From an uncultured Pseudomonadota bacterium (GTDB lineage: Bacteria; Pseudomonadota; Gammaproteobacteria; Methylococcales; Methylomonadaceae), in assembly GCA_903918375.1 (NCBI GenBank), contig CAIXED010000045.1, positions 1 to 56,527 on the forward strand: a stretch of 56,527 bases of DNA, given 5' to 3'. The position numbers and the translations under genes are program-made. Each line of letters opens with the position of its first letter. The first letter of the stretch is position 1. Of the stretch, positions 7,241 through 54,037 are shown one piece after another. The notes beneath the pieces were generated by a model that searched no databases, was not told where the DNA came from, and worked only from the letters and a program-made list of their open reading frames with translations.

Positions 7241-7243
7241 ATA

Positions 7244-8338: not shown

Positions 8339-8350
8339 TTGATGTTTTTG

Positions 8351-9370: not shown

Positions 9371-9471
9371 CAGGTAATTTATTTCTGTAGCGACTCAAAA
9401 ATTTGGTTACTTCGTTACACTATAAGCTTGTCCGAGGTTTTACGTGCTATTTAGCAAGCTTAGGAGGTTGT

Positions 9472-10109: not shown

Positions 10110-10123
10110 ATTTTCACTTCATT

Positions 10124-10153
10124 AGCTTTGAAGTTTACGGTCAAAGCTTTTTC
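10124..10153 (+). terminator. Intrinsic terminator of the vapBC operon
   Basis: An 8-bp stem (agctttga with tcaaagct) and a 9-base loop are followed by a T-rich run (ttttcttt), 14 bp after the vapC stop. Confidence 0.8.
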
Positions 10154-10181
10154 TTTACGACGTTAGTCGCGAACTTATCAA

Positions 10182-11927: not shown

Positions 11928-11936
11928 CAGGTTTTG

Positions 11937-13454: not shown

Positions 13455-13455
13455 T

Positions 13456-14136
13456 ATGACCCATCAACGTCGTTTTTATGAATTAATCACCGTGTTGTTT
13501 TTAGCCAGTATCACCACTTTGGTGTTTTGGCTAACCGATTGGGATTACCGTTTGGCATCGATTTTCTACCATCCTGAAAATCCTAATGACGTCTGGCCTT
13601 TGCAACATGCTTGGTTTTTAAAACTGTTATTTGATTACGCTTTCCCTTTCACTGTCGCCGTCGGTGGCGGTGCTTTATTGGTGTTCTTGTTAAGTCATGT
13701 TCACGATCACAGTCGCCGCTATCGTCGCCAAGCTTTGTATATTTTGCTGGTGATTGCTTTAGGGCCAGGGGTGGTGGTGAATTTGATTGTTAAAGACCAT
13801 TGGGGCAGGCCGCGTCCGGTGCATATCCAAGAGTTTGGCGGTGAGTTTCAATATGTGCCGCCGGTTAAATTAGGCCACACCACCGATAAATCCTTTGTCT
13901 GCGGGCATTGTTCGGTCGGCTATGCTTTTTTTGCGGTGTATTTTTTGGCGCAAAACCATAAGTTAATTTATCTGGCTTTAACCTTGGGTTTGGCTTGGAC
14001 CATGGGCTTCACGCGGATGACGGCGGGCGGTCATTTTGTCTCGGATATTTTATGGTCAGGCTATTTAGTGTTCTTGGTGGCTTATGCTTTGTATTACGGC
14101 TGGTATGCCCGAATTAAGCCCAATGCGCTTGAATAA
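13456..14136 (+). CDS. PAP2-family membrane phosphatase
   Basis: A 226-residue membrane protein with the three PAP2 motifs: KDHWGRPRP, a variant second motif CGHCSVGYAF (Cys in place of the usual Ser of PSGH), and TRMTAGGHFVSD with the nucleophilic histidine. PAP2 enzymes dephosphorylate lipid A, undecaprenyl pyrophosphate or phosphatidylglycerol phosphate at the outer face of the membrane. ATG 13456 is chosen because it follows the GT39 stop by one base and begins just before the first hydrophobic segment. A longer frame into the GT39 gene has no support. The link to lipid A is inferred from the neighbour. Confidence 0.85.
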   Translation: MTHQRRFYELITVLFLASITTLVFWLTDWDYRLASIFYHPENPNDVWPLQHAWFLKLLFDYAFPFTVAVGGGALLVFLLSHVHDHSRRYRRQALYILLVIALGPGVVVNLIVKDHWGRPRPVHIQEFGGEFQYVPPVKLGHTTDKSFVCGHCSVGYAFFAVYFLAQNHKLIYLALTLGLAWTMGFTRMTAGGHFVSDILWSGYLVFLVAYALYYGWYARIKPNALE

Positions 14137-14156
14137 CTGGGTTTTCGAGTTTAGCT

Positions 14157-14165
14157 TGTTATAAT
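14157..14165 (+). promoter_or_regulatory. Extended -10 promoter for dapA-bamC
   Basis: TGTTATAAT gives a perfect -10 hexamer with the extended TG, 35 bp before the dapA start codon. The -35 region is poor, as is usual for extended -10 promoters. A transcript starting near 14172 would have a short leader containing GAGAG before the ATG. Confidence 0.6.
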
Positions 14166-14200
14166 GACCCAGTTTTGTATCACCCGAATGAGAGAATTGC

Positions 14201-15082
14201 ATGATTCAAGGTAGTATCGTTGCACTAGTAACCCCGATGACCGAGGACGGTGCGGTGGATGAAGTTAGCCTTAAAAAGCTAATTGAATTCCATATCGAGC
14301 AAGGCACAGATGCCTTAGTTGCAGTGGGCACCACAGGTGAATCAGCCACTTTAGATGAAGATGAACATTGCCAAGTCATTAAATTGACGGTAGATACGGT
14401 CGCTGGCCGGATTCCCGTGATTGCTGGCACCGGTGCTAATTGCACCCGCGAAGCAATTCAATTAACCCAAAGAGCCAAACAAGCCGGTGCCGATGCCTGT
14501 TTGTTAGTCACACCGTACTACAACAAGCCGACTCAAGAAGGTTTGTATCTGCATTACAAAGCGATTGCCGAAGCAGTCGATATTCCACAAATTCTCTATA
14601 ACGTCCCTGGCCGTACTGCTTGCGATATGTTGCCGGAAACGGTGGGTCGATTGGCTAAAATCAACAACATTGTTGGCGTTAAAGAAGCTACTGGCAAACT
14701 AGAGCGGGTTAAACAAATTCGTAATTTAGTCGGCGATGATTTTGCGATTTATACCGGTGATGATGCCACTAGCCGCGAATTTTGCTTATTAGGTGGTAAT
14801 GGCAGTATCACCGTCAGCGGTAATGTGGCGCCAAAATTAGTTCACCAAATGTTGATGGCAGCTATCAACGGCAACGCTGAGTTAGCAGCAGAAATCGACG
14901 TCAAATTGACCGGTTTGCATAATGATTTATTCATTCAATCCAATCCTATCCCAGTGAAATGGGCGGTGGCAGAAATGGGCTTGATGGGCAAAGGGATTCG
15001 TTTACCGCTGACTTGGTTAAGCCCTGAATGTGAAGCGACAGTTCGTCAAGCAATGCAGCAAGCAGGTGTGATCACAGCATGA
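14201..15082 (+). CDS. dapA: 4-hydroxy-tetrahydrodipicolinate synthase
   Basis: Condenses pyruvate with aspartate semialdehyde in the lysine/diaminopimelate pathway. All key residues fall at the same positions as in the E. coli enzyme: Thr44 (GTTGESAT), Tyr107 ([11 protein letters not shown]), Tyr133 (YNVPGRT) and the Schiff-base Lys161 (GVKEATG). The length of 293 residues is typical. The stop overlaps the start of bamC by four bases (ATGA), an arrangement also common in other gammaproteobacteria. Confidence 0.98.
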
Positions 15083-39253: not shown

Positions 39254-40534
39254 ATGACAGTTGTTGCTGTAATTGGCTTGGGTTATGTGGGGCTTCCGCT
39301 AGTCGTTGAATTTGGGAAGCATAATCGGACAATTGGCTTTGATATTGCCGAATCAAAAGTAGAGTCCTGTAAAAATGGTATTGATCCTGCACATGAATTA
39401 TCCGAAGCGGATATGAATTCTGCAATTTATGCTGAGTATTCATCTGATCCAGCTGTGTTAGCAGAAGCAGATGTGATTATTGTTGCCGTACCTACACCGG
39501 TTGATGGTGCCCATATTCCTGATTTTAGCCCGCTGATTGGTGCTAGTCGGTGCGCTGGTCAATATATGAAAAAAAATGCCGTGGTGATTTATGAATCAAC
39601 AGTCTATCCCGGCGCTACTGAAGAAGTTTGTATTCCCGTATTAGAAAAAACATCAAACATGAAATGGAAAAAGGATTTCTTTGTTGGTTATTCACCAGAA
39701 CGAATTAATCCTGGTGACCGTGAACATACGTTAACTAAAATTCTAAAAGTGGTTTCTGGTGATACTCCTGAAACGCTGGAAAAAGTCGCTAATTTATACG
39801 AAAAAATTGTTATTCCTGGTGTGCATCGTTGTAGCAGTATTAAAGCCGCTGAAGCGTGCAAAGTGATTGAAAATACCCAGCGTGATTTGAATATCGCCTT
39901 AATGAATGAATTGGCGATCATTTTTGAAATGCTCGATATTGATACTAATGAAGTATTTGAAGCGGCTGGCACTAAATGGAATTTCTTGAATTTCAAACCC
40001 GGTTTAGTTGGTGGCCATTGTATTGGTGTTGATCCTTATTATTTAACCCATAAAGCAGTGACTATGGGTTATCACCCGCAAGTGATTTTAGCGGGTAGAC
40101 GAATTAATGATGGTATGGGTAAGTTTATTGCCGAACAAACCATTAAAGTGATGATTTCTTGTGGTAGTTATGTCAAAGGCGCAAGAGTTAATATTTTAGG
40201 TCTTACTTTTAAAGAAAATTGTGCCGATTTGCGTAACTCAAAAGTGATTGATGTGATTAATGAGTTAGCTATTTATGGTGTGGATGTATTTGTTCATGAT
40301 CCTCATGCCGACCATGAAGAAGCGATGAATGAATATGGTGTCAAATTATTACCGTGGAATGATATGCCAAGAGCAGACGCCATTGTCGCGGCAGTTTCAC
40401 ATCAACAATTTAATGAGTTATCGACTGATGATTTTCAACAAAAACTGATTAAAGGTGGTTGTTTAATCGACGTTAAATCGAGTTTTAATGTGCCAGAAAT
40501 GGAAGCGGCAGGTATTAAAGTTTGGCGACTTTAA
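39254..40534 (+). CDS. tviB: UDP-N-acetylhexosamine 6-dehydrogenase (TviB/WbpA-like)
   Basis: Oxidises a UDP-N-acetylhexosamine to the uronic acid in two NAD-dependent steps. The N-terminal Rossmann domain has VIGLGYVGLPL and VAVPTPVD. Downstream are ESTVYPGATEEVC, the central YSPERINPGDREH and the catalytic Cys256 in GGHCIGVDPYYLTHKA; the C-terminal domain has GLTFKENCADLRNSK. The DPYYLTHKA form and length of 426 match TviB-type UDP-GlcNAc/GalNAc dehydrogenases rather than UDP-glucose dehydrogenase. It opens the polysaccharide locus and suggests that an aminouronic acid is a building block. The exact epimer is not determined. Confidence 0.92.
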   Translation: MTVVAVIGLGYVGLPLVVEFGKHNRTIGFDIAESKVESCKNGIDPAHELSEADMNSAIYAEYSSDPAVLAEADVIIVAVPTPVDGAHIPDFSPLIGASRCAGQYMKKNAVVIYESTVYPGATEEVCIPVLEKTSNMKWKKDFFVGYSPERINPGDREHTLTKILKVVSGDTPETLEKVANLYEKIVIPGVHRCSSIKAAEACKVIENTQRDLNIALMNELAIIFEMLDIDTNEVFEAAGTKWNFLNFKPGLVGGHCIGVDPYYLTHKAVTMGYHPQVILAGRRINDGMGKFIAEQTIKVMISCGSYVKGARVNILGLTFKENCADLRNSKVIDVINELAIYGVDVFVHDPHADHEEAMNEYGVKLLPWNDMPRADAIVAAVSHQQFNELSTDDFQQKLIKGGCLIDVKSSFNVPEMEAAGIKVWRL

Positions 40535-40567
40535 TAGTATTTAAAATAAAAAACAGGATGGTTGTTT

Positions 40568-41389
40568 ATGCGAAATGCCTATATTAGTTATTCTTATTGG
40601 TTTATGGCTTTTTTGAGTAGTAGCTCTCGAATCGCATCCGGTTCCGGTATGGTTGATGATTTTGATCAAACCACGCCGTCAATGATGTATGAAACCGGTG
40701 CAATGAGTGAATCGACCGAGCCAAACTGGTGGTTAAACTCAGGTGGACAACTGACACGAAACGGCAAATTTCTCAGCACCGTTCAGGGACAATTAGCCAA
40801 TTCAGATAGCTTTCGTAACCTATATGCCGACTCTAATCCTGTTGATACCGACAACGGTTATCGACCACAAAATTTATTAAGATTAGTCACACGAGTTAAG
40901 TTTAAAAACTTTAATCAACAGGTGTTTTTTAATATTCAAAATATCAATACCTCAGAGAGTCCGAACCGGAATCAATCCAATGGGGTGTTTTTCTTTAATC
41001 GCTATCAAGATGGTAAAACGCTTTATTACGTCGGGATTCGAGTTGATGGTACAGCGGTGATTAAAAAGAAGTTTGCTGGGGAATATACGACTTTAAAGTC
41101 GGCGATTGTTTATCCAGGTACTTATCAACACGAAACACAACCCAATTTATTGCCGACTCATCGTTGGATAGGTATTCGTTCTGAAGTGATTAATACTAGT
41201 AATAATTCAGTTATGATTGCGATGTATATCAATGATATTAATTTGGGAACAGGTTGGATTAAAATCTTAGAAGTAGAAGATTCTGGGCAGAATGGCGATA
41301 CTATTTTGAATGAAGGTTTTGCAGGGATTCGGAGTGATTTTATGGATGTTAATTTCGATGCTTATGCGGCGGTTGAAAATCCAGAATAA
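40568..41389 (+). CDS. Hypothetical secreted protein, possible lectin/lyase-like jelly roll
   Basis: A 273-residue protein with a weak signal peptide (SYWFMAFLSSSSRIASG) and an all-beta pattern of alternating strands and aromatic residues: VTRVKFKNFNQQVFFNIQNI, NGVFFFNRYQDGKTLYYVGI, HRWIGIRSEV and GTGWIKILEVEDSG. Similar strand patterns occur in polysaccharide-lyase and concanavalin-like domains. The start at 40568 has AGGA nine bases upstream. It lies 33 bp after the dehydrogenase and is likely co-transcribed. A distant resemblance to the convergent protein at 41512-43152 (GxxWIKxxEVxDxG versus [13 protein letters not shown]) suggests a shared domain. Function unknown. Confidence 0.65.
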   Translation: MRNAYISYSYWFMAFLSSSSRIASGSGMVDDFDQTTPSMMYETGAMSESTEPNWWLNSGGQLTRNGKFLSTVQGQLANSDSFRNLYADSNPVDTDNGYRPQNLLRLVTRVKFKNFNQQVFFNIQNINTSESPNRNQSNGVFFFNRYQDGKTLYYVGIRVDGTAVIKKKFAGEYTTLKSAIVYPGTYQHETQPNLLPTHRWIGIRSEVINTSNNSVMIAMYINDINLGTGWIKILEVEDSGQNGDTILNEGFAGIRSDFMDVNFDAYAAVENPE

Positions 41390-41412
41390 CTAAATTAATT
41401 TTTGAAAATCAA

Positions 41413-41497
41413 GTAGGTAGGGTTATGCGTTAGCCGTAACCCAACGCGTTGGCCTTCGATTGTTGGGTTCGCTCTATCGAGCGAACCCAACCTACTT
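41413..41497. repeat. REPIN: two inverted GTAG-headed REP palindromes
   Basis: The element opens aagtaggt and closes acctactt. Inside are a 6-bp hairpin (gggtta at 41420-41425 with taaccc at 41437-41442) and an 11-bp hairpin (ttgggttcgct at 41463-41473 with 41480-41490). Head GTAG and tail CTAC face each other, the REPIN arrangement of RAYT-mobilised sequences. It lies between convergent genes and may also serve as a terminator. Confidence 0.75.
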
Positions 41498-41511
41498 ATT
41501 ATTTATATTAA

Positions 41512-43152
41512 TTACGGAACGATGCTCACAATTTTGCACACCGAATCCGAACCAACACTGGCTATGCTGGCAAAGTTATTAATAATTGGTACATAAGATT
41601 GTTCGGTACGAAATAATAGGTTTTTACCAATAATCTGATAATTGGTGCCATCAGCGCTGACATAGGCGTTGTAACGATGCGTCATTAGATTAATATATAA
41701 CCTAAACCGATAAGCTTTATTCGGTAAATAACGAATCGAAGTGCTGGCTTTGTAAGTACCGCCACTACGTGCATCGATTTTGCCATTGGTATTAAATCTA
41801 ACTGCTGCGGCTAAGTCGCTGTAGTTATCTGCGATACCGTTGGATAATCCAAACACACCGTCGATATTAGAACCAGACGGTGTTGCATCAAATTCAACCG
41901 TCATGGTTGATTTAGTAGCTGTGATTGATTTATTCACCCATTGGCCCGTGCTGCTGATGCAGTTATCAACGGTTTTAAATGATTGATCACTCGATGTGCC
42001 AATGTTGCCAGAGGTGTCTTCCGATTTAACCAGATAGTGATAAATGGTATTCAGGCTTAGACCGGTCAAATCGACATTATGAATCGTCACCAAGACCTCA
42101 TCCAAAATACTGGGTTTTTCATAAGCGGTCGAAGTACCGTATTGCACTTCAGAGCTTGCTAATTCATCTGTGGTCCAAGTTACAGTTGCTTGTTCACCTT
42201 GGATATTCTCAGTGGCAACGTCACTAATCACCGGAGCTATGGCATCAGGCAAAATTGAAGCATTCGGGGCGATTTCTCGGATGGTCATTTTTTTATAAAC
42301 CAAGCCATTAGTCGAGACATCGTCACTGCGGAAATAGACAGTGATATTCGGTTTACCTGATTCGCTGCCTGGTCTGGCATCGACATTGCTCAACTTAATG
42401 CCAGGGTTGATTCCCGATTTACAGGGCGTACCTTGTGCGCCAAAATTGCTGCCAGTATCAACTAACTCATTAACTTTAATCCAGTTACCGCCATTTAGAC
42501 CATCGGATTGATCCATCCATAATTCCATTTTGACGTTACCGTCCGGTTGGTCATAGACCACATATTTATAGCCAATCCAGACGTTTTTCGGTAAGCCAGA
42601 CGACCAAACAGTTTTGTTTTGAATCGCGGTCGAGTTGGGGTGACTGGTTTCCTTTTCAAAATCGATATGACCGTCATAGCGTATTCGCGCCGCGATGCCG
42701 CGAGTGTCGCAAAGATTGGCGGTTTCCGAGCCTGTGGTGCCGTGGTTGGTGCGAGCGATGCCAACGATGCCACCCCAATCGGTGCCACTGTCGGCAACCC
42801 GCATCGCGTACACCGTCATTTCGACATTACGCCAGCTATCTAATTTAGCTGGGTCGTGGATATACATTCTCGGCACCGAACCAGAAATTTTAAATAAGCC
42901 TTTGCCATCGACGTTGTAGGTTGCATCGCCATGATCGGCATCAAACCACGTGTCTTGCGGGTCTATCCCTGAAAACGAGCGGCTAATGCCGTTATCCCAT
43001 TTTGATACCCATGACTTTCCGTCATTAAGCGATGGGTAGATTTGGGTTATGCCAAATTTGTCGTTGGCAGCCTTCACCGGTGTCGCCAATATCAAGCCAG
43101 TGGCGATACCGATCGCTAATAATTTTGATCGAGAAAAGGGGGGTAGATTCAT
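41512..43152 (-). CDS. Secreted multidomain protein with fibronectin III-like domain
   Basis: A 546-residue protein with a signal peptide ([18 protein letters not shown]). Residues about 30-290 are an all-beta region with conserved aromatics ([22 protein letters not shown]-like [28 protein letters not shown]), resembling polysaccharide-lyase or concanavalin-type folds. A fibronectin III-like domain follows (about 305-395; [37 protein letters not shown]). A final beta domain of about 145 residues ends the protein. It is the only minus-strand gene in the polysaccharide locus. Binding or cutting of the polymer is likely by context; no catalytic residues can be named. Confidence 0.7.
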
Positions 43153-43621
43153 TGCTTTACTCCATGTTAATGAATAATGACTTTTCCAATCTAAGAAAAA
43201 ATTAGGTCAATAAACATAAATAAGTTTTTGTTTATTTTTTCTGAATAAAACAATAGATATTTCCTATCCCCTGATAATATCTAATCGTAACTGATGTTCT
43301 TAGATGGTTTTAAACTGAGTGTAACGGGGATTATTTGATTCTAGCGCTAAAATCTAGGCTTGTTTTTTATTTGGTGATGAAATTAACAAATATGTATTAA
43401 CTATTGTTTATGCTGATTAATTATTAATGTTCGCTAGTTAACGAATGTGTTTTATCGTACAGAACGGCATTGTTTAGATTGATATGGTTACTATGAGTTG
43501 AAGCATATTCAACTGGTTTTAAATAGTAATTGCCTTGTTAAAGGCCGTCAATTTTTGCAGAAGCATTTATAGGATTTCAAAATTGTATAAATAATTCAGT
43601 AAACCCGTTTTGGAGAGAGCG
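43153..43621. other. AT-rich divergent intergenic region
   Basis: 469 bp between the divergent secreted-protein and glycosyltransferase genes, with no gene. It holds an inverted repeat tagatatt (43254-43261) / aatatcta (43276-43283), suited to a dimeric regulator, and a weak hairpin aataaac / gtttatt (43209-43236) followed by T residues. Both divergent promoters must lie here but cannot be assigned with confidence. Confidence 0.45.
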
Positions 43622-44956
43622 ATGTTATCAACCGAAAAAGCAGATTCAATCGTCGATTACGACGCCGCGGTGCTAAGTCCGCCGATCAACGGCTGGAATT
43701 TAGATTTCAAACGCCTATTTATTTTTATACTGGCTGTGGGTTTAATTATTTTTGCCATGACCACGGTTTTCGGTCTCCGTTTAAGTAACTTTACTTATTA
43801 TTGGTATAGCCCTTATGCCAATTTATATTCGATAGCGATTGCCGGTTTTATCTTTTCCCGTTTTATATTTTCTTTGCTGTATCGCACCCCGTACAACGCC
43901 CATATCACCCCTAAAGTCAGCATTATCATTACCGCGTTTAACGAAGAAGAAGCAATTTATAGAACCGTTAAAGCTTGCTATGACATTGATTATCCAGCCG
44001 ATATGTTTGAGGTGATCGTGGTGGATGATGGATCTAGCGATGGCACCGTTGCCGAAACTCGACGGGCTCAGAAACGCTGGCCAGAACTGAAATTAGAAAT
44101 TTTTGCTCATAACAAAGGTAAGCGCGAAGCGATGGCGGCAGGGGCTTATATTTCTGATGGCGAAATTTTGGTCTATGTCGATTCCGACAGCTTTGTTAAG
44201 CGCGATGGCGTACGCAAGATTGTTCAAGGCTTTGCTGATCCGCGTGTCGCGGCGGTGGCAGGTCATACCGAAGTGGCTAATGTCGGTGAAAACAGCCTGA
44301 CCCGAATGCAACAAGCCCGTTATTACGTGGCGTTTCGCGTCATGAAAGCCGCTGAGAGTATTTTCGGCACCGTCACTTGCTGCCCCGGTTGTTTCTCCGC
44401 TTATCGTCGCAGTTGTGTGATGGAAGTGTTGCCGGTGTGGTTGAATCAGCATTTCTTAGGTATTCAAGCCACTTTTGGTGATGACCGCAGTTTAACCAAT
44501 TACTTGTTACGCAAATATCGAGTGATTTACGCTGCTGATGCGGTTGCCACTACCATCGTGCCAGAACATCACAAGCAATTTCTAAAACAGCAATTACGCT
44601 GGAAAAAATCTTGGTTCCGCGAAACCTTAATCGCCGCCACCTTTATGTGGAAAAAACACCCGTTTGCAGCGATTGCTTTTTACGCCCAGCTTTTGTTCCC
44701 CATCATCGCGCCATTGTTGATTTTGCGCTTGTGCTTGTGGTTGCCGATTATGGAAACCGATTTGATTTCACCGCTGTTGTATTTAATGGGCACGGTGGTG
44801 ATTGGCTTAATGTTTTCTGCCTATTACCTATTCTGGAAAGCTGACCGTTACTGGATTTATGGCCTGTATTTCACCGTGTATTACTTGATGTTTTTGGTTT
44901 GGCAAATGCCGTATGCGATAGCCACCCAACGCGATAACAGATGGGGGACAAGATGA
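43622..44956 (+). CDS. Processive GT2 glycosyltransferase (polysaccharide synthase)
   Basis: A 444-residue membrane synthase. Two N-terminal helices (about residues 31-85) precede a GT-A domain with DD at 135-136 (VVVDDGSSDGT), the UDP/metal DSD at 187-189, GDD at 286-288 in place of the usual ED, and QQLRW at 323-327. This is the full D,D,D,QxxRW set of processive beta-synthases such as PgaC, NodC and hyaluronan synthase. Three or four C-terminal helices follow. ATG 43622 is chosen because GGAGAG lies four bases upstream. It overlaps the next gene by four bases. The polymer is not determined; the neighbouring dehydrogenase suggests a UDP-aminosugar or its uronic acid as donor. Confidence 0.92.
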   Translation: MLSTEKADSIVDYDAAVLSPPINGWNLDFKRLFIFILAVGLIIFAMTTVFGLRLSNFTYYWYSPYANLYSIAIAGFIFSRFIFSLLYRTPYNAHITPKVSIIITAFNEEEAIYRTVKACYDIDYPADMFEVIVVDDGSSDGTVAETRRAQKRWPELKLEIFAHNKGKREAMAAGAYISDGEILVYVDSDSFVKRDGVRKIVQGFADPRVAAVAGHTEVANVGENSLTRMQQARYYVAFRVMKAAESIFGTVTCCPGCFSAYRRSCVMEVLPVWLNQHFLGIQATFGDDRSLTNYLLRKYRVIYAADAVATTIVPEHHKQFLKQQLRWKKSWFRETLIAATFMWKKHPFAAIAFYAQLLFPIIAPLLILRLCLWLPIMETDLISPLLYLMGTVVIGLMFSAYYLFWKADRYWIYGLYFTVYYLMFLVWQMPYAIATQRDNRWGTR

Positions 44957-46836
44957 GTAGCTTACCGATGCAACATCGTTTTCCTAAACAGCCTTTGCCT
45001 GTCAGTCATAAACGCAATCTGATTTGGTGGTTGCTATTAATTGCCGCAGTGATTACCGGTCATGAGTTACCGAAATTACTAGCCAGCACTGGCAACCAAA
45101 CCCAGCCAGTTGTCACCAGTATCGAAAACCAAGCGTTTTTGGCTTTAAGCTTTGGCAAAGTCAGTAATACTCCCGGTTTGGCAATTTCGGTCAATAGCTT
45201 AAAAGACGATTTAAACGCGATTAAACAAGCGGGTTATCACACGCTGAGTATGGCGCAGATCAATCGTTGGCGAACCAGCAATAAGGAATCGCTACCCAGC
45301 AATCCCGTGTTGCTGACTTTTGAAGAAGCGAATCGCGAAACCATAGAAATTGTTGATCCAGTGTTAGCTCGACTAGGCATGACCGCTACCGTATTTGTCG
45401 ATGTCGCCGAATTGGAGCAAGCCAATATTCATTTGGTGTCGTGGCATAAGTTGGAGCTGATGGCTAAAAGTGGCCGCTGGGAAGTGGCGGTGTCTGCTTG
45501 TCCAAATGGCGATGACCAAGGCTTTGCTAACCCGGTGTTGTTGGCGCAGAAACTGAGCCAACAACGGCAAAGACTAGAACAGCGGCTACAAATTCCAGTG
45601 TTAGTGGCGGATTGTTCACGCGCGTGGAATCCGGCTTATGGCGATGGTGCGGTGATTTGGCCGCAAACATTGACTGAGGCTGGTTTTACTATGGGCTTCG
45701 TCGCTGCCGCCTCGGGTGCCAATTATCAAGTGGATAGTGCCAATCATTTGAAACGGATTCGGGTTTCCAGAACTTGGGCTCCAGCCGAATTAGTCAGCCA
45801 ACTCAATAATAACCAACCGCGCCGCACCGAATTTGTTGACCAATTTGATTCGGCGCTTTCGGCCTCGGCGTGGATTGTTGATAGTGGTGAGATGACGATA
45901 GCACCGGGTAATCTGCGCTTAACCAATAGCCCGAACGAGCAGGGCGCTTTGATGAGTTTGGCGGGCACTGAAAAATGGCGCGATGCCGATGTTGAAGTGC
46001 AATTAGCCGCGCATCCTACTGGCCAATTTTGGCTGTCTTTACGCAATGATCCTCACCGCGCCTCGATTCGGTTAGGGATTGCTAATGGTCAGGTTTTATT
46101 GCAAGAGTCACTGGCTACCGATGTCCATCGCCAATTAGCCAGTGTTGATGTTAGTGAAGGGCCGTTGACTTTGAGACTACGGGTGGTCGGTAAAGGCGCG
46201 ATGGCTTATTTGAATGACCAGCCGTTAACCAATCGCCCGGTTGCCATGCCAGAAGGCGCTGAACAGGGACCTGTAGCCTTGGCGGTTTGGCAGCCAGCGT
46301 CTGAATCAGCTGATTTAACCGAGGCGGTGGTCAATCTCAGCAAAGTCATTGCCAAGCCGCTGGTTGCCAAAGCCGGCATTATTACCCCAGTGTTAGACGA
46401 AACCGGTTGGCAACAACTGCATGATGCGGTTGAGCAATTAGCGATACTCAGTCCGCAGTATTTCGCTTGGCAAGACGGCAAATCTCAAGCGTTAGCGGCT
46501 TATGACAATGCCTTAGAGATTTTTGCCCGTTATCACCAGCTTAGTTTTCAACCGGCTGTGGTGGTTGATGGGCAAACGCCGCTGTCCGATGCGCCATTAT
46601 TGGCTGGTCAACTTCTTAATTGGGCTAGTGAGTCGGGATTTGATGGGCTGAATCTGGTTGTCAATGATTCCATGTTAAATGACGGTTGGCGGGCATTTTT
46701 GACTGATTTAATCCAGCGTATCCGTCAAGCGGGTAAGACTCTGACTGTCACCGTACTCGATGTTAATCAACAGTCTCAACCTAGGGATGCTAATAATTTT
46801 TTATGGATGGTGGCTAGTTCGTCATCAATAAATTAA
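44953..46836 (+). CDS. Membrane-anchored hybrid: degenerate deacetylase-like, lectin-like and GH18-like domains
   Basis: A 627-residue protein anchored by one helix (about residues 22-38). Residues about 65-290 have the NodB/PgaB-like lead-in (SLKDDLNAIKQAGYHTLSM), but the catalytic TFDDG is LTFEEA (Glu124-Glu125) and the HxxxH metal motif is absent (AVSACPNGDD in its place). A concanavalin/LamG-like region spans about 295-450. The last 150 residues resemble a GH18 barrel (LLNWASESGFDGLNLVVND), but the acidic DGxDxDxE set is missing. It is probably a non-catalytic periplasmic partner of the synthase, with which it overlaps by four bases (ATGA). ATG 44953 is preferred over ATG 44941 for this reason. 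Confidence 0.75.
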   Translation: MSSLPMQHRFPKQPLPVSHKRNLIWWLLLIAAVITGHELPKLLASTGNQTQPVVTSIENQAFLALSFGKVSNTPGLAISVNSLKDDLNAIKQAGYHTLSMAQINRWRTSNKESLPSNPVLLTFEEANRETIEIVDPVLARLGMTATVFVDVAELEQANIHLVSWHKLELMAKSGRWEVAVSACPNGDDQGFANPVLLAQKLSQQRQRLEQRLQIPVLVADCSRAWNPAYGDGAVIWPQTLTEAGFTMGFVAAASGANYQVDSANHLKRIRVSRTWAPAELVSQLNNNQPRRTEFVDQFDSALSASAWIVDSGEMTIAPGNLRLTNSPNEQGALMSLAGTEKWRDADVEVQLAAHPTGQFWLSLRNDPHRASIRLGIANGQVLLQESLATDVHRQLASVDVSEGPLTLRLRVVGKGAMAYLNDQPLTNRPVAMPEGAEQGPVALAVWQPASESADLTEAVVNLSKVIAKPLVAKAGIITPVLDETGWQQLHDAVEQLAILSPQYFAWQDGKSQALAAYDNALEIFARYHQLSFQPAVVVDGQTPLSDAPLLAGQLLNWASESGFDGLNLVVNDSMLNDGWRAFLTDLIQRIRQAGKTLTVTVLDVNQQSQPRDANNFLWMVASSSSIN

Positions 46837-46927
46837 GGAGTTTTTCATTTAGCTTTGGGATTAGTGCAGGGCGAATGAAAAAAGGTGAGACCACTAAGCG
46901 ATGTAGCAAAGCCGTGGTTTTTATATG

Positions 46928-46970
46928 AATAAGTCATTAACTAGACGATGAGTTCGATGACTTATTTTTA
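46928..46970 (+). terminator. Intrinsic terminator or leader hairpin before the first deacetylase module
   Basis: A 10-bp perfect stem (aataagtcat, 46928-46937, with 46957-46966) with an inner aact/agtt pairing is followed by tttta. Another weaker stem accac/gtggt with a following T-run ends near 46922. Together they separate the synthase pair from the next gene and suggest a transcript end or an attenuated leader. Confidence 0.6.
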
Positions 46971-46995
46971 ATCTGTCATTTAAGGAAGCTATGCC

Positions 46996-47550
46996 ATGAA
47001 TCAATATAAGAATCATCAACTCAACTATTCAGGGGGCGGGCGCTGTCGGCCATCCCGTTTAATCGCTGCGACTTTGCTGATAGCAGCTTCAGCTTCGGTG
47101 TTTGCTGATGCCCATTTGGGACTGACATTAACAGGTCCCAAAACCGCACCATCGGGTTATCCGGTTGAAGGGATTAAGGTTAAATTGGTCAATCAAGATG
47201 CCACCGATGCGCCCGCTTCACGCTTACGGTTATTTATTCACGATGAGTTAGACCGCGATTTACAAGCCAGCGATATCAAAATTGATGTGTTGGAAGGTGG
47301 TGATTGGCAGGCTTTATCGCTGGAGCCGATTGATGGCGGCGTGATGGCGGCGATTGGTTCAGCCGGTTTGCCACATGATGATAACCATGAAAAAGGCGGC
47401 TTTTCGATTGATAAAAAAACCATTAAAGAATGGCGTTTACGAGTAACGCTGGCTTTGGCGGGGCATTATTCGGTGGTGGTGGCGGTATCTCCAGATAACG
47501 GCAGTACCCATTTAGCGAAACCGGCTAGTTTGAAGTTGGAGGCTTTATGA
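46996..47550 (+). CDS. Small secreted protein of unknown family, deacetylase partner 1
   Basis: A 184-residue protein with a signal peptide (LIAATLLIAASASVFADA). The mature beta-rich domain contains LGLTLTGPKTAPSGYPVEGI, ASRLRLFIHDEL, DGGVMAAIGSAGLPH and KKTIKEWRLRVTLALAGHYS. It has the look of an immunoglobulin-like or transthyretin-like fold. AAGGA lies nine bases before the ATG. It overlaps the following deacetylase by four bases, and the paralogue at 50405 has the same arrangement, so the protein probably works with the deacetylase. No named family recognised. Confidence 0.75.
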   Translation: MNQYKNHQLNYSGGGRCRPSRLIAATLLIAASASVFADAHLGLTLTGPKTAPSGYPVEGIKVKLVNQDATDAPASRLRLFIHDELDRDLQASDIKIDVLEGGDWQALSLEPIDGGVMAAIGSAGLPHDDNHEKGGFSIDKKTIKEWRLRVTLALAGHYSVVVAVSPDNGSTHLAKPASLKLEAL

Positions 47551-49961
47551 GAATTCAGTCCTTCAAACTCATGTTGATGGTTTTGTTGTCGCTAGTGACT
47601 TTAAATCAGTCGGTACAAGCAGCACCAATGTGGCGAACTTTAGTGTCGTTAACCTTTGATGATGGCTTAAGCCAATCGGCAGCGCTGGCAATTTTGGCTA
47701 AACACAAGATGGTCGGTACGTTTTACGTTAATACTGACCGGATTGATGACACTGACTATTTGTCCAGAGCCGAGTTAGATAGCTTAGTGGCCAGCGGCAG
47801 TGAAATTGGTGGCCATACCATCAACCATGTCGATTTAGCGACTTTGTCAGATTCAGCCCAACGCACGGCGATTTGTGATGATATGAATAACTTGGTCAAT
47901 TGGTTTGGTGCTGATCAAGTTCATAGCTTTGCTTATCCGTTTAGTTCGACTGGGCCGACCACGCAAAGTGTCCTCGCTGCCGGTTGTTCCGGTGTTGGTA
48001 GTTATGAAAGTGCGCGAGCTGTTGGTGGTTTAGTCAGTGGTACGTCTTGTACTAGCTGTCCTTGGGCGGTTAACGTACCACCGGGTAATCCTTATTTCAT
48101 TCCAACCAATAGCTCAACCAAATCATTCAACACCTTGGCTGATTTACAAGGCTATGTATTACAGGCAGAACAACATGGCGGTGGCTGGATACCGATTGTG
48201 TTTCATCGGGTCTGTGATGGCTGTGACACTTTATCGGTCAGCCCTGCGGTATTGGAGGATTTTTTAGCTTGGTTAGAACCACGAGCGGCAGCGAATGCCA
48301 CTTATGTCAGAACGGTGCATCAAGTGATCGCGGGTGATTATCCGGCTGCGCCACCAGCACCAGTATTGGGCACTAATCTGCTGAAAAATCCATCTTTGGA
48401 ATTGGATGCAGATAAGAACAATCAAGCCGATTGTTGGTATCGCTCTAACTATGGCACCAATACTGCGGTTTGGTTGCATCGTAATGATCCGAGCAAAGCC
48501 CATAGCGGCAGCTTTAGCGAAACAGTGACGATTAGCAGTTATAGCAATGGTGATAGAAAGTTGTTGCCAACTTTAGATGCAGGCCAAGCGGCTAATGCTT
48601 GTGCGCCTAATGTGGTGGCAGGGCAAACCTATGAGTTAAGTGCTTGGTATAAATCAACCGCGCCAGTGTCGTTGACCTTGTTTTATCTTGATGCCAATAA
48701 CGTCTGGCAGTATTGGCGCGATGGGCCTTTATACGCAACAGCGACCAATTGGACGCAAGTGAAGTATTACGCCACTGAGTTGCCAGTCGGTGCTAAAGCG
48801 GTGAGTTTTGGGCTGTCATTAGCGGCTGTTGGCGAATTAAGTACCGATGATTACTCGCTGGCTACTGTGAGCAGTTCGCCTGTGGTGATCACGGATACCA
48901 CGCCGCCGGTTATTTCAAACTTAGCCCCAGTGGATGGCACCACCGTGTCGGGTACTGTGTCGCTAACCGCCAATGTCAGTGATGATACAGCGGTAAAACA
49001 AGTCGAGTTTTTAATTAACGGTAGTGTGGTCGGTACGGATAGCACTAGCCCTTATTCGGCTGCGTGGAATTCCACGGCAGTGGCTAATGGTTCGGTGACG
49101 TATAGCGTTAGAGCGACTGATAGCAGTGATAATCAAAGCTTGTCTACGGCCAATAATTTGACTGTCAAAAACGATGCCGCCGCGCCAACGATTAGCTTTA
49201 ACCAGCCGCCGACACCGAATGCTGGTGATACTGTTTCTGGTCAAGTGTCTTTGTCAGCCAATGCTAGTGATGATATTGGTGTCACCAAAGTTGAGTTTTT
49301 GGTGAATAACGTGGTGCTGGCAACGGTTAACGCCAGTCCTTATACAGCGACTTGGAATACCGCGCTTAATGCCAATGGCTCAGCAACTGTCACCGCTAAG
49401 GCTTATGACGCTTCTGGTAATGTCACCACCACACCGACGCTTAGCGTGACAATCAATAACAGCCAAGTGGTGAGTTTATTGAGCAATGCTTCTTTGGAAA
49501 CGGATGCCAATAACGACAGTATTCCTGATTGTTGGCAGCGAGATGCTTATGGTTCGACCAGTAATCGGGTGGTTTGGACGCGGATCAATAATCAAGCCCA
49601 TAGCGGAACTTACGCACAATCGGTACAGTTGACCCGCTATAAATCGGGAGATGTGAAGCTGCTTCAAGATGAATCAAACAGTGCCTGTGTGCCGTCGGTT
49701 GTTGCGGGTAAGAAATACACCATCAGTGCTTGGTATAAATCAACTGTCGCGACCAGCATGGCGGTGTTTTACCGTGATGGATCGGGGAACTGGGTGTATT
49801 GGTTAAACAGTCCTAACTTCGCAATTAGCAGTGCTTGGAAACAAGCTAGTTACACCCTGCCAGCTGCGCCCGCCGGTGCGACTGCCATCTCATTTGGCTT
49901 AGCTATTCAGAAAGTCGGTACTTTAATCACCGATGATTATGCAATGGTGGCTGCGCCTTAA
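47547..49961 (+). CDS. Secreted polysaccharide deacetylase with CBM-Ig-Ig-CBM tail, copy 1
   Basis: An 804-residue protein. Signal peptide 1-26. NodB/CE4 deacetylase about 30-265, with catalytic Asp38-Asp39 (LTFDDGLSQ), metal histidines 90 and 94 (GGHTINHVD), third motif SFAYPFSSTG, and VFHRVCDGCD near its end. About 275-440 is a carbohydrate-binding jelly roll (NPSLELDADKNNQADCW, YELSAWYKS). Two bacterial Ig-like domains follow (APVDGTTVSGTVSLTANVSD and NAGDTVSGQVSLSANASDD), then a second carbohydrate-binding domain to the end. It would remove acetyl groups from an extracellular aminosugar polymer while bound to it. Translationally coupled to the small secreted protein. A terminator follows. 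Confidence 0.92.
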   Translation: MRIQSFKLMLMVLLSLVTLNQSVQAAPMWRTLVSLTFDDGLSQSAALAILAKHKMVGTFYVNTDRIDDTDYLSRAELDSLVASGSEIGGHTINHVDLATLSDSAQRTAICDDMNNLVNWFGADQVHSFAYPFSSTGPTTQSVLAAGCSGVGSYESARAVGGLVSGTSCTSCPWAVNVPPGNPYFIPTNSSTKSFNTLADLQGYVLQAEQHGGGWIPIVFHRVCDGCDTLSVSPAVLEDFLAWLEPRAAANATYVRTVHQVIAGDYPAAPPAPVLGTNLLKNPSLELDADKNNQADCWYRSNYGTNTAVWLHRNDPSKAHSGSFSETVTISSYSNGDRKLLPTLDAGQAANACAPNVVAGQTYELSAWYKSTAPVSLTLFYLDANNVWQYWRDGPLYATATNWTQVKYYATELPVGAKAVSFGLSLAAVGELSTDDYSLATVSSSPVVITDTTPPVISNLAPVDGTTVSGTVSLTANVSDDTAVKQVEFLINGSVVGTDSTSPYSAAWNSTAVANGSVTYSVRATDSSDNQSLSTANNLTVKNDAAAPTISFNQPPTPNAGDTVSGQVSLSANASDDIGVTKVEFLVNNVVLATVNASPYTATWNTALNANGSATVTAKAYDASGNVTTTPTLSVTINNSQVVSLLSNASLETDANNDSIPDCWQRDAYGSTSNRVVWTRINNQAHSGTYAQSVQLTRYKSGDVKLLQDESNSACVPSVVAGKKYTISAWYKSTVATSMAVFYRDGSGNWVYWLNSPNFAISSAWKQASYTLPAAPAGATAISFGLAIQKVGTLITDDYAMVAAP

Positions 49962-49989
49962 ATTCAGGTCTTTTTTAAAAGCTTAATTA

Positions 49990-50056
49990 AAACAACCAAA
50001 GCCTTTTTCTGTTTGTTCCGCTTGGGGCAAATGGGAAGGGCTGCGGTTGTTTTTTA
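49990..50056 (+). terminator. Intrinsic terminator after deacetylase 1
   Basis: The arms aacaacc (49991-49997) and ggttgtt (50045-50051), extended by an agcc/ggct pairing, are followed by a T-run, about 30 bp after the stop. The loop is long. Confidence 0.55.
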
Positions 50057-50121
50057 TGTCCTTGAATTCAATACACTTAGTTTGGTTTTATCCATTAGCT
50101 CCCACCATTGCCTATTGACTT

Positions 50122-50194
50122 CGTCATTGCCGCGAAACAGGGAAGCTAGGTTGTTGGCTTCGATTTCTGGATTCCCGCCTTCGCGGCAATGACG
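50122..50194. repeat. Inverted-repeat element, same family as 19889-19988
   Basis: The arms cgtcattgccgcgaa (50122-50136) and ttcgcggcaatgacg (50180-50194) are perfect over 15 bp, with a diverged 43-bp centre that still includes attcccgcc. The rest of the 443-bp gap 49962-50404 holds the terminator before it and no gene after it. Confidence 0.7.
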
Positions 50195-50404
50195 GTGAGA
50201 TTTGTCAGCGTTATGTAACCGCTGGCAAATGCGAGTTACCCCTCTAAGTAATTGATCCTAAGCGGTTTATCGCACAGATAACCACCCAATGTTGCCTTTA
50301 AGCTGTATGTGCGTTCACAGACGTTTTGATAAGCCATTAATTTAATCGTCGGTTGAATAAAGTTAAAAAACATCCGTTAATCAGCAGCTTAAGGACTCTA
50401 CGCT

Positions 50405-50968
50405 ATGAATCACTATCAAAATCCGCCACTTGCACAATGTCGAAAATTCACTTATCGATTGGGCGTGACTTTATGCATTGTTTCCGCCGCTATCAGCGTT
50501 AGCCAACCGACATTAGCCGACAGTCGCCCACGTTTAGGCCTTAGTCTGACTGGGCCGAAAAATGCACCATCGGGTTATCCGGTTGAAGGGATTAATGTCA
50601 GATTGGTTAATCAAGATTCGGTAGAAGCAGCGGCTTCGCGGTTACGCTTGTTTATTCACGATGATCAATTGAGTGATTTGCGGGTGGCTGATGTGAAACT
50701 GGATGTTCAGGAAGGTAATGAGTGGAAGCCTTTACCGCTAGAACAGGTGGATGGTGGGGTGATGGCGGCAATTAGTTCCGCTGGTTTGCCACATAGCGAA
50801 CATCATAAACGTGGCGGTTTTCCGATTAATAAAAAAACCATTAAAGAATGGCGATTGCGAGCAACTTTGGCGCAGGCTGGGCATTACTCGTTGGTAGTGG
50901 CGGTTTCACCGAATAACGGTGGTACCCATTTAGCACAGCCAGCTAGTTTGAAATTGGAGGCCTTATGA
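50405..50968 (+). CDS. Small secreted protein of unknown family, deacetylase partner 2
   Basis: A 187-residue paralogue of the protein at 46996: a signal peptide ending near TLADS, then LGLSLTGPKNAPSGYPVEGI, ASRLRLFIHDDQ, DGGVMAAISSAGLPH and KKTIKEWRLRATLAQAGHYS. Conservation is high in these blocks and lower between them. AAGGA lies about 12 bases before the ATG. It overlaps the second deacetylase by four bases, exactly as in copy 1, which supports a functional pair. Confidence 0.75.
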   Translation: MNHYQNPPLAQCRKFTYRLGVTLCIVSAAISVSQPTLADSRPRLGLSLTGPKNAPSGYPVEGINVRLVNQDSVEAAASRLRLFIHDDQLSDLRVADVKLDVQEGNEWKPLPLEQVDGGVMAAISSAGLPHSEHHKRGGFPINKKTIKEWRLRATLAQAGHYSLVVAVSPNNGGTHLAQPASLKLEAL

Positions 50969-53373
50969 TGCGTTATGGTTTTTTAAAGCTAATCCTATTG
51001 GTTCTGTTAGTCATCGTCGCCTTCAATCAGCCCTCACAAGCCGCTAATGTCCGTTGGCAAACCTTGGTTTCGTTGACTTTTGATGATGGCTTAACTCAAT
51101 CTCCGGCGCGTGCGATTCTGGCTAAACACGGAATGCATGGCACTTTTTACATCAATTCCAACAAAGTTGATTCTGGTGGTGGTTATCTAACCAAAGCCGA
51201 AGTGGATGGCTTATTGGCCGATGGCAATGAAATTGCCGGCCACACCATTAACCACGTCGATTTAGCTACCTTGTCGGATACCGATCAACATAATGCTATT
51301 TGTGACGATATGCGCAATTTGGTGGATTGGTATGGTTTGGATCAAATTCACAGCTTTGCTTATCCGTTTGGCTCGACTGGGCCAAGCAGTCAGAGCGTGG
51401 TGGCGGCTGGTTGCGATGGTCTTGGCACTTATGAAAGTGCTCGCGCAGTCGGTGGCTTGATTAGTGGCCCTTATTGTCAAGATTGTCCTTGGGCGGAAAG
51501 CATTCCACCTGGCAATCGTTTTTTCGTCGCCAGCAATAGCTCGGTGGCAACTACCACCACCTTGGCTGATATGCAAAGCTATGTGATGCAAGCTGAACAA
51601 CATGGCGGTGGCTGGGTGCCGTTGGTGTTTCATCGAGTTTGTGATGGCTGTAGTACCTTGGCGGTAAAGCCGGCTGATTTGGATGCGTTTTTGACTTGGC
51701 TGGAAACCCGTACCGCTAATGATACTTATGTTAGAACCGTGCATGAAGTGATGTCTGGCGATTATCCAGCCCCGCCACCGCCACCGCAATTAGGGCCGAA
51801 TTTGATTGTTAATCCATCTTTAGAAGTCGATAAAAATAATCAAGCTCAGTGTTGGTATCAGTCCAATTATGGGGCTAATACAGGTAATTGGAGCCATCTG
51901 AATGATACTTCCAAAGCGCATAGTGGTAGCTATAGTGAAACCTTAGTGATTAGCGGCTATAGCAGTGGTGATCGAAAGTTATTACCTGAATTAGATGCAG
52001 GTCAGGCGGCGGGTGGCTGTGCGCCCAATGTTGTTGCCGGTGAATTGTATGAATTGAGTGCTTGGTACAAATCAACAGTACCTACCACCTTGGTGATGTT
52101 CTATTTGGATGCTAATGGCAACTGGCAATATTGGCGTGATGGACCTGTTTATACAGCGGTTAATAACTGGACCCAGTTCAAATATTACGCCAGAGATTTA
52201 CCGGCTGGCGCTCAAGCTTTGAGTTTTGGGCTTTCACTGAATAGTACCGGCGAATTAAATACCGATGATTACTCAATGGCGGCAGTGCTTGGTAACGTTG
52301 CGGCAGTTGATAGTAATTCACCTGTGATTGAAAGTTTTGGACCGGCTGATGGTAGTTCGATCACTGGCCCTGTTTCATTAACGGCATCGGTTACCGATAA
52401 TTCGGTGGTGCAAAGCGTGGAGTTTTTAATCAATGACACTGTGGTTGGTACTGATCACACCAAACCTTATTCAGTGACTTGGAATTCTAGTTCGGTGCCC
52501 AATGCTGTTGCCACTTATACGGTTCGAGCCACGGATGATAGTGCTAATCAAACCTTGTCAGCGGTTAATAATCTGACTGTGCAAAATGACTTATTACCAC
52601 CAACTATCAGCTTTATCCAACCACCAACCCCTAGCGAAGCTGATAACGTCTCTAAGCAAGTGACTTTGTCGGCGGTTGCCGAGGATGATGTCGCGATTTC
52701 AAAAGTCACATTTTTAGTGAATGGTGCAGTGCTTGGTGTGACCAATAGCAGTCCTTATACAATCAACTGGAATACCTTGTTAAATGCCGACGGCCCAGCG
52801 ATTTTGACCGCCAAAGCCTACGATACAGCAGGCAATATCACCACCACGCCAGCGATTAATGTCGTGGTGAACAACTACGCCGGCAATCCTGTCAACAATG
52901 CGTCTTTGGAAATTGACGCCAATAAAGACAGTATTCCTGATTGTTGGCAATTAGGCGGGCAGGGCACTAACAGCTTTGTTTGGACGCGGATTAAAGATCC
53001 TGCTTTGACCCATAGCGGAAATTTTGCCGAATCCTTACAAATCACCAGCCGTAGTTCTGGCGACCGTAAACTGGTGCAAAAACAAGATAGCAGCACCTGT
53101 GCGCCCAAGGTAACGCCAGGCACTCGCTATACCTTAAATGCTTGGTATAAATCGACGGTACCGACTGGCTTTGTGGTCTATTACCGCAATAGCGCCGGTG
53201 TTTGGACTTACTGGCTAACCAGCCCGAATTTCGTCAGTACCAATAACTGGACTCAAGCCAGCTACACCATTCCCGCTGTCCCTGCTGGCGCTACGGCCTT
53301 ATCGTTTGGTTTGTATATCAATCAGGTAGGGACTTTGCTGACCGATGATTATGGGATGGTGAATTTGCCGTAG
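50965..53373 (+). CDS. Secreted polysaccharide deacetylase with CBM-Ig-Ig-CBM tail, copy 2
   Basis: An 802-residue paralogue of the 47547 product with the same domain order. Catalytic Asp40-Asp41 (LTFDDGLTQ), His93 and His97 (AGHTINHVD), SFAYPFGSTG and VFHRVCDGCS are intact. Carbohydrate-binding domains lie at about 278-440 and 645-802, with two Ig-like domains between. Differences are spread over the whole length, most visibly in the Ig-like domains, so the duplication is not recent. Two active copies may act at different polymer lengths or conditions. Confidence 0.92.
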   Translation: MMRYGFLKLILLVLLVIVAFNQPSQAANVRWQTLVSLTFDDGLTQSPARAILAKHGMHGTFYINSNKVDSGGGYLTKAEVDGLLADGNEIAGHTINHVDLATLSDTDQHNAICDDMRNLVDWYGLDQIHSFAYPFGSTGPSSQSVVAAGCDGLGTYESARAVGGLISGPYCQDCPWAESIPPGNRFFVASNSSVATTTTLADMQSYVMQAEQHGGGWVPLVFHRVCDGCSTLAVKPADLDAFLTWLETRTANDTYVRTVHEVMSGDYPAPPPPPQLGPNLIVNPSLEVDKNNQAQCWYQSNYGANTGNWSHLNDTSKAHSGSYSETLVISGYSSGDRKLLPELDAGQAAGGCAPNVVAGELYELSAWYKSTVPTTLVMFYLDANGNWQYWRDGPVYTAVNNWTQFKYYARDLPAGAQALSFGLSLNSTGELNTDDYSMAAVLGNVAAVDSNSPVIESFGPADGSSITGPVSLTASVTDNSVVQSVEFLINDTVVGTDHTKPYSVTWNSSSVPNAVATYTVRATDDSANQTLSAVNNLTVQNDLLPPTISFIQPPTPSEADNVSKQVTLSAVAEDDVAISKVTFLVNGAVLGVTNSSPYTINWNTLLNADGPAILTAKAYDTAGNITTTPAINVVVNNYAGNPVNNASLEIDANKDSIPDCWQLGGQGTNSFVWTRIKDPALTHSGNFAESLQITSRSSGDRKLVQKQDSSTCAPKVTPGTRYTLNAWYKSTVPTGFVVYYRNSAGVWTYWLTSPNFVSTNNWTQASYTIPAVPAGATALSFGLYINQVGTLLTDDYGMVNLP

Positions 53374-53489: not shown

Positions 53490-53714
53490 ATGGCAACAAC
53501 ACATGTCAATATGCGGGTTCAAAAACACCGAGAAGCATTACGAATGGCGGGACTTCGCCCTGTACAAATATGGGTGCCTGATACAAGACGAGCTGGTTTT
53601 GCTGAGGAATGTCGTCGCCAATCGCGTTTGGCAGCACAAGCTGATGCGATTGATCACGATATGCAGCAATTTATGGATCAAGCCTTAGCGGATTTGGATG
53701 GATGGACTGAATAA
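53490..53714 (+). CDS. MazE-type antitoxin (DUF3018 family)
   Basis: A 74-residue protein: NMRVQKHREALRMAGLRPVQ, IWVPDTRRAGFAEECRRQS, then an acidic toxin-binding tail (DQALADLDGWTE). This is the DUF3018/antitoxin MazE family pattern. AGGAGGAG lies five bases before the ATG, one of the strongest ribosome binding sites in the window. Its TAA overlaps the toxin ATG by one base. A longer frame from 53431 in another phase is spurious. Confidence 0.85.
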   Translation: MATTHVNMRVQKHREALRMAGLRPVQIWVPDTRRAGFAEECRRQSRLAAQADAIDHDMQQFMDQALADLDGWTE

Positions 53715-54037
53715 TGCGTGGCGATTTCGTAACTATCGCCATGCAAGGTGATTTTGGCAAACCTAGGCCAGCTCTGATTATTCAAGCCGATCTGTTCAGC
53801 GAACTTGAGAGCGTGACTGTTTTGCCGGTAACAAGTACCTTGGTCGAAGCCCCGTTGTTTCGTGTCACAGTGCAACCTACTTCAGCAAACGGCTTACAGA
53901 AGCCTTCACAGGTAATGGTAGATAAAGCCATGACCGTGAGGCGTGACAAGATAGGGCCGGCTTTTGGGCGGATAGATACTAATTCGCTGGTCGAGGTCGA
54001 GCGTTGTTTGGCTGTGTTGTTAGGGATTGCAAAATAA
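53714..54037 (+). CDS. mazF: MazF/PemK-type toxin endoribonuclease
   Basis: A 107-residue toxin with the MazF fold: RGDFVTIAMQGDFGKPRPALIIQ, the strand VTVLPVTSTLVEAPLFRVTV, PSQVMVDKAMTVRRDKIG and a C-terminal helix VEVERCLAVLLGI. MazF enzymes cut mRNA at short sequence motifs; the motif here is unknown. It is translationally coupled to the antitoxin. A large palindrome begins 44 bp downstream. Confidence 0.9.
   Translation: MRGDFVTIAMQGDFGKPRPALIIQADLFSELESVTVLPVTSTLVEAPLFRVTVQPTSANGLQKPSQVMVDKAMTVRRDKIGPAFGRIDTNSLVEVERCLAVLLGIAK

Follow-up and report, generated by a model that had tools for sequence, protein, structure and literature searches.

A candidate Pga-like exopolysaccharide system with a deacetylase-bearing exporter candidate in methanotrophs

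Introduction

Poly-beta-1,6-N-acetylglucosamine (GlcNAc) is the product of pgaABCD in Escherichia coli, where a deacetylase of the PgaB kind is reported to dock on the tetratricopeptide repeat (TPR) domain of PgaA and an interaction between PgaA and PgaB has been described. Published accounts of the Pel system also have a deacetylase and a TPR-containing porin acting on an N-acetylhexosamine (HexNAc) polymer (PMC12022489, PMC9384988), and reported BcsZ-BcsC fusions in Zymomonas provide a precedent for a periplasmic enzyme joined to an export porin (PMC7112194). Here we describe a locus at positions 39254-53373 of contig CAIXED010000045.1 from an uncultured bacterium of the family Methylomonadaceae (GenBank assembly GCA_903918375.1). 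The window analysed is this entire contig (C45; 56,527 nucleotides), the genome is 2.79 Mb in size, and a metagenome-assembled genome (MAG) labelled Methylomonas koyamae is a near relative in the same genus. Judged from its sequence, the locus probably encodes, with a further gene on contig C18, a synthase-dependent exopolysaccharide system of Pga-like kind, whose product would be a HexNAc polymer with part of its N-acetyl groups removed. An original prediction had proposed a synthase-dependent polysaccharide system with a single glycosyltransferase at the locus and deacetylases predicted to be extracytoplasmic, which agrees with our analysis. Its statement that no export porin is present is not supported: an exporter candidate with TPR, CE4 and barrel-like regions is encoded on C18. 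Nor is its statement that the genes do not match pga, as synthase, PgaB-like protein and PgaA-like protein make up the Pga plan in modified form. Among the matches listed from open-access literature, titles and abstract openings contain no description of the locus or of a PgaA-deacetylase fusion.

Gene content of the locus

All nine open reading frames (ORFs) that had been proposed are open at the expected places. Genes are named below by their start position where no other name is given.

39254..40534, forward strand: locus-type nucleotide-sugar dehydrogenase, TviB-like; above the TIGR03026 cut-off and apart from generic paralogues
40562..41389, forward strand: jelly-roll (concanavalin-like) protein; secretion judged by eye; co-occurs with the synthase
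41512..43152, reverse strand: protein with a 40562-like region, a fibronectin type III (Fn3)-like domain and a possible C-terminal carbohydrate-binding module (CBM); signal peptide by eye
43610..44956, forward strand: GT2 synthase of NodC/hyaluronan synthase (HAS)/chitin-synthase type, from family models and motifs
44941..46836, forward strand: PgaB-like pseudo-deacetylase; N-terminal membrane anchor and middle jelly-roll-like region by eye; no assignment for the C-terminal part
46996..47550, forward strand: sA1, small partner protein of CE4a, family A5
47547..49961, forward strand: CE4a, CE4 deacetylase containing two Big_7 domains; by eye, a signal peptide and repeated binding-like modules at the C-terminus
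50405..50968, forward strand: sA2, small partner protein, 66% identical to sA1
50965..53373, forward strand: CE4b, CE4 deacetylase, 64% identical to CE4a and of the same layout

Overlaps are 16 bases between the synthase gene and 44941 and 4 bases between each sA gene and its CE4 partner. Most of the gene set recurs jointly in other genera at ~40-87% identity, which indicates a grouping beyond chance. None of the nine locus proteins passes a curated equivalog cut-off. Of four proteins predicted to be secreted and of unknown family, three (40562, 46996 and 50405) are without a Pfam match as expected, 41512 has an Fn3-like match, and secretion is judged by eye.

The families given for the dehydrogenase and the synthase were borne out. 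The synthase has hydrophobic segments at both ends and keeps the motifs DDG, DSD, GDD and QQLRW. Its nearest curated model is NodC (TIGR04242; 192 bits versus a cut-off of 550), the PgaC model TIGR03937 gives 121 bits (cut-off 422), and among solved structures hyaluronan synthases are its best relatives (2.4e-34; the existence of a rival NodC structure was not checked). In an alignment without a characterised HAS row, it is 29% identical to NodC and shares 32% identity with a plasmid GT2; this distant GT2 adjoins a UDP-glucose-dehydrogenase-like gene (501 bits, cut-off 757). A CPGCFSAYR stretch in the synthase presumably resembles fungal chitin synthases. The synthase alignment omits the row of genome G089, in whose assembly the frame is broken by an in-frame TAA at 239/448 (L043 549-1892) and the exporter frame is open; protein alignments omit G156.

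Matches of 44941 to CE4 and PgaB models are all sub-threshold (PgaB TIGR03938, 37.6 bits versus 321.9), and values against solved CE4 chains are 1.4e-6 (4wcj) and 1e-5 (PgaB, 3vus). TFEE replaces TFDD and the motif-2 histidines are missing; the CE4 motifs are lost in all nine methanotroph 44941 rows, with neither motif-2 histidine kept and DD changed to EE, DV or DE. By its motifs, the free PgaB-like protein is catalytically dead. In a Pacebacteria MAG (L028), the CE4 relative retains DD and HTWDGH, which are PgaB-type motifs. A hydropathy scan of 44941 gave no segment above threshold. The view of 44941 as an inactive deacetylase/GH18 hybrid is thus upheld for the lost CE4 motifs; the GH18 half was rejected as fact, with no Pfam match and, against a single GH18 sequence, an hhalign probability of 24% (E 8e-4).

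Distribution and conserved core

The search for the same gene set across relatives that the original prediction proposed found related loci in ten other methanotroph genomes, so that the synthase-bearing methanotroph genomes number 11: G000 (the window's own genome), G156, G174, G009, G018, G089, G091, G115 (Methylovulum psychrotolerans Sph1), G662, G605 and G618. On shared contig coordinates, G662/G598, G618/G597 and G156/L021 are treated as same-genome pairs. Of 151 family genomes, six contain protein 44941. The synthase occurs in 9 of 251 order genomes (1e-100), in 3 of 61 relatives (1e-60) and in 1 of 398 sampled phylum genomes, its own (1e-80), and 40562 is likewise confined to its own genome in that phylum sample (1/398, 1e-5). 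A genome collection contained eight synthase loci, including those of Crenothrix polyspora, Methylovulum psychrotolerans, Methylocaldum and the Pacebacteria MAG (43%). The PgaB-like protein is matched in all 11 synthase-bearing genomes, and synthase, periplasmic PgaB-like protein and TPR exporter are kept together in every one of them (the G156 exporter is partial). Protein 40562 is matched in the same 11 genomes and in none of five controls. From these comparisons, the constant core is the GT2 synthase, the PgaB-like pseudo-deacetylase, the TPR-CE4-barrel-like protein and jelly-roll protein 40562. Three of these core genes are at the window locus and the exporter is on C18; the predicted deacetylases are accessory and the dehydrogenase is usually present. 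The system is a candidate matrix system for several methanotrophs, Crenothrix polyspora included. Crenothrix polyspora is filamentous and sheathed; we weighed a role in its sheath but make no such claim.

The exporter candidate

Searching with 44941 gave partial matches to a frame of 1343-1370 amino acids (aa) in all six family genomes. The own-genome protein (C18, 810-4847; ~1345 aa) has TPR to about residue 660, CE4 at 756-902, TPR at 971-1043 and a PgaA_barrel-like C-terminal region. It is matched once per genome in 11/11 synthase-bearing genomes and 0/3 controls, near full length in ten; the G156 match, on a short contig, covers residues 1-661 (the TPR half). In eight genomes (G089, G115, G091, G018, G009, G662, G618 and G605) it adjoins the synthase. 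Alignment of the embedded CE4 to PgaB extends along its length (PDB 3vus, 1e-16; E. coli PgaB, E 1.3e-15). Seven of eight rows keep DD and the first His, and all eight have the second His. When aligned to the E. coli PgaA barrel with hhalign, the C-terminal region scores 37.7 (E 1e-4), compared with at most 23.4 for 100 shuffles, 14.2 for the reversed sequence and 20.7 for one DUF1207 protein. An NQR block is common to the exporter C-terminus and the PgaA barrel, and NQR is found in six of eight orthologues. A PgaA-like outer-membrane barrel at the C-terminus is thus suggested, by remote homology only. The CE4-barrel piece had matches in 30 of 398 phylum genomes; among the matches listed, none but the own protein passes query residue 215/645 (the CE4 part), and one match sits in a 1726-aa frame. 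In the own genome (L029 4990-8016), a PRC-barrel protein and a DUF1207 protein come after the exporter, as they do in G174.

Several observations weigh against a Pga-like reading of this protein and of the system. The curated PgaB, PgaC and NodC cut-offs are all missed, and exporter and locus are on separate contigs in G000 and its two nearest relatives, G174 and G156. The hhalign probability is just 56% for the barrel and 42% against whole PgaA, and the C-terminal part of the exporter, taken alone, gives 20 bits against the PgaA barrel model PF21197 (cut-off 27); the PgaA-barrel Pfam match is sub-cut-off in G091 and missing in three of four rescanned relatives. The exporter structure model is poor (predicted local distance difference test, pLDDT, 44). 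Histidine spacing in the embedded CE4 is H-x5-H versus H-x4-H in PgaB, and two catalytic positions are substituted in the exporter CE4 of G018 (L036 2536-6609; DD is DG and the first motif-2 His is Gln), which makes embedded CE4 activity uncertain. Both Methylocaldum genomes are without CE4a-type proteins, and the locus dehydrogenase is absent in two of ten tested genomes, G091 and Methylocaldum 14B.

On the motif evidence, either the active PgaB-type deacetylase seems to have shifted out of the free protein and into the exporter, or the free copy decayed once the fusion existed. In a deacetylase tree that omits 8 of 12 CE4a/b rows, the exporter CE4 is closer than pseudo-PgaB to the Pacebacteria CE4 and PgaB; the branches are long and the placement tentative, and the tree is compatible with a CE4 move but weak. 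The apparent deacetylase-exporter fusion mirrors the PgaA-PgaB interaction, which makes modification at the pore testable on one polypeptide.

The locus dehydrogenase

The nearest equivalog model of the dehydrogenase is TviB (482.5 bits, under the 592 cut-off), and the UDP-glucose dehydrogenase model PRK15057 gives 38.8 bits; a UDP-HexNAc 6-dehydrogenase is the likely identity. The search for locus-type copies covered ten of the 11 synthase-bearing genomes (G605 was left out) and found one in eight, at 81-100% identity (Crenothrix, 64%). G091 and Methylocaldum 14B have only a control-like generic copy (53-55%). The 11 controls here were genomes in which the 44941 search found no match; nine have just a 53-58% copy and two have none at 1e-60. 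In a tree of 24 sequences, the eight locus copies cluster (node label 100; labels can shift on rerooting). The enzyme is thus, by sequence comparison, a distinct locus-linked paralogue that is co-conserved with the synthase but not universal, so the proposed co-conservation holds in most genomes and not in all. The idea of an aminouronic precursor fares similarly: the TviB-like dehydrogenase is largely co-conserved but not obligatory. Because the dehydrogenase-less genomes are Methylocaldum, used as the root of the synthase/exporter tree, and G091, gain and loss are not cleanly separable. A dehydrogenase unconnected with the locus was rejected because the locus copies form their own tree group, although GC content differs.

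Proposed mechanism and alternatives

In the proposed mechanism, GT2 would polymerise UDP-GlcNAc, possibly with UDP-N-acetylhexosaminuronic acid (UDP-HexNAcA) from the locus dehydrogenase, and, as its family suggests, would extrude the chain across the inner membrane. The PgaB-like protein may hold or guide the chain in the periplasm. The C18 protein would carry it along the TPR repeats, and its PgaB-type domain would de-N-acetylate the chain just ahead of the barrel before release. Outside, the two CE4 proteins with polymer-binding-like tails and their small partners could deacetylate further, and jelly-roll proteins could bind or trim the polymer. The resulting matrix polymer would be partly deacetylated and either cationic or zwitterionic, and a zwitterionic HexNAc/HexNAcA copolymer is possible. 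A more specific scheme, in which one HAS-like synthase alternates HexNAc and HexNAcA along a chain that loses acetyl groups within the export pore to give a bacterial zwitterionic glycosaminoglycan, with the porin as modifying enzyme, seems to us unlikely.

A chitin- or chitosan-like homopolymer, for which GT2 would use UDP-GlcNAc alone and the dehydrogenase would serve decoration or another pathway, has somewhat less than an even chance. The core persists without a locus dehydrogenase in two of ten tested genomes, and the synthases there are not extra divergent (SW43 and Methylocaldum, 72-78% to other methanotroph rows). NodC as the nearest curated model, the CPGCFSAYR stretch and a Gram-positive relative with CE4, GT2, CE4 and GH18 but no dehydrogenase among its listed neighbours (in an incomplete gene table) point the same way. 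However, locus dehydrogenases of the other eight genomes group apart from generic paralogues, and both genomes without one keep a generic paralogue. Linkage of the dehydrogenase to the locus would suit an alternating copolymer of hyaluronan type, for which one synthase would draw on both UDP-HexNAc and UDP-HexNAcA before deacetylation gave a zwitterion, as would the hyaluronan synthases among solved structures and the distant plasmid relative (32%) beside a UDP-glucose-dehydrogenase-like gene. Kinship of the synthase to HAS versus NodC is nevertheless unsettled in an alignment without a characterised HAS row, and the dehydrogenase is not universal; we regard this copolymer as somewhat improbable.

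The locus could also comprise two adjoining units, with the dehydrogenase and 40562 in a glycan pathway of their own and the exporter system limited to 43610-53373 and the C18 protein. GC content is 38-39% in the dehydrogenase and 40562 genes versus 45-49% in the other seven, and the divergent gene 41512 separates these two from 43610-53373. Such a division is distinctly unlikely given that 40562 accompanies the synthase in all 11 genomes and no control, and that the 5 kb that follow the distant Pacebacteria synthase (L028) downstream contain two 40562 homologues. The Pga-like system for a partly de-N-acetylated HexNAc polymer, which we favour, may indicate a new biopolymer that is deacetylated or zwitterionic.

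Accessory proteins and neighbouring genes

The expectation of two active, secreted CE4 deacetylases with binding tails is supported in its first part by TFDDG and HxxxH, which are intact in all 12 CE4a/CE4b-type rows; secretion and tails are judged by eye. The CE4a type occurs in 9/11 synthase-bearing genomes and 0/5 controls, and the CE4 proteins have weak NodB-model matches. Protein 40562 has a jelly-roll predicted model (pLDDT 57) with low-confidence fold matches to CBM66 (best), galectins, PL7 and glucuronan lyase, and might, with low confidence, be a lectin or a lyase/hydrolase. Sequence searches for solved-structure relatives of 40562 and of sA gave nothing convincing, and a plasmid collection yielded no 40562 match. 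The G156 copy of 40562 is partial, with an in-frame TAA. Protein 41512 matches the purple-acid-phosphatase N-terminal (Fn3-like) Pfam model above cut-off and a sialidase-like CBM sub-threshold, and was seen in 6 of 11 genomes in a survey of locus neighbourhoods, not whole genomes.

Between 40562 and 41512, a short dispersed repeat (41413-41496) with 16 further matches in the own genome is partly palindromic and resembles, by eye, a repetitive extragenic palindromic element. Directly after CE4b is a small MazF-like ORF (53714-54037; named by eye), at a position that holds the exporter or glmS in some relatives. A second glmS is present in 5/11 synthase-bearing genomes and 0/3 controls, which fits an amino-sugar product; a glmS copy adjoins the locus in G089, G115 and G662. 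G089 and G115 each encode a PAS histidine kinase close to the dehydrogenase, and G115 a LuxR-type regulator as well.

Comparison with known systems

Distant clusters on a Paenibacillus cellulositrophicus plasmid (L102) and in Pacebacteria (L028) share a GT2 (40-44% identity) beside CE4, and L028 also has the two 40562 homologues; they differ in that no TPR-barrel exporter was noticed in the stretches inspected, with no dedicated search run. The L102 cluster (6586-14216), on a megaplasmid of a Gram-positive host, consists of CE4, PilZ-GT2, CE4 and GH18, with a cyclic di-GMP-type domain on the synthase. Hyaluronan synthase and NodC-NodB share synthase motifs, nearest models and the weak NodB-model matches of the CE4 proteins with the methanotroph system, which differs in its TviB-like rather than UDP-glucose-type dehydrogenase and its own exporter candidate. 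The Vi capsule differs by the sub-cut-off TviB match noted above; further Vi genes were sought solely among the nine locus proteins. Pel likewise pairs a deacetylase with a TPR-containing porin for a HexNAc polymer and differs in gene set, with no Pel family among Pfam and NCBIfam matches of the nine locus proteins. In the Zymomonas fusions, the fused enzyme is a cellulose hydrolase and not a deacetylase.

The nearest likeness is to pgaABCD, which shares a GT2 synthase, a PgaB-like protein and a TPR exporter with a remotely PgaA-like barrel region; the CE4 embedded in the methanotroph exporter is of PgaB type. The differences are that the methanotroph synthase scores the NodC model above PgaC models, that the free PgaB-like protein is degenerate and CE4 is fused within the exporter, and that the locus adds CE4, sA and jelly-roll proteins and a dehydrogenase. 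No PgaD was found at the locus, where alone it was sought: synthase and 44941 overlap, and 41389-43610 contains no same-strand ORF of at least 100 aa. By curated tests the system is no Pga member, yet its predicted operation is Pga-like.

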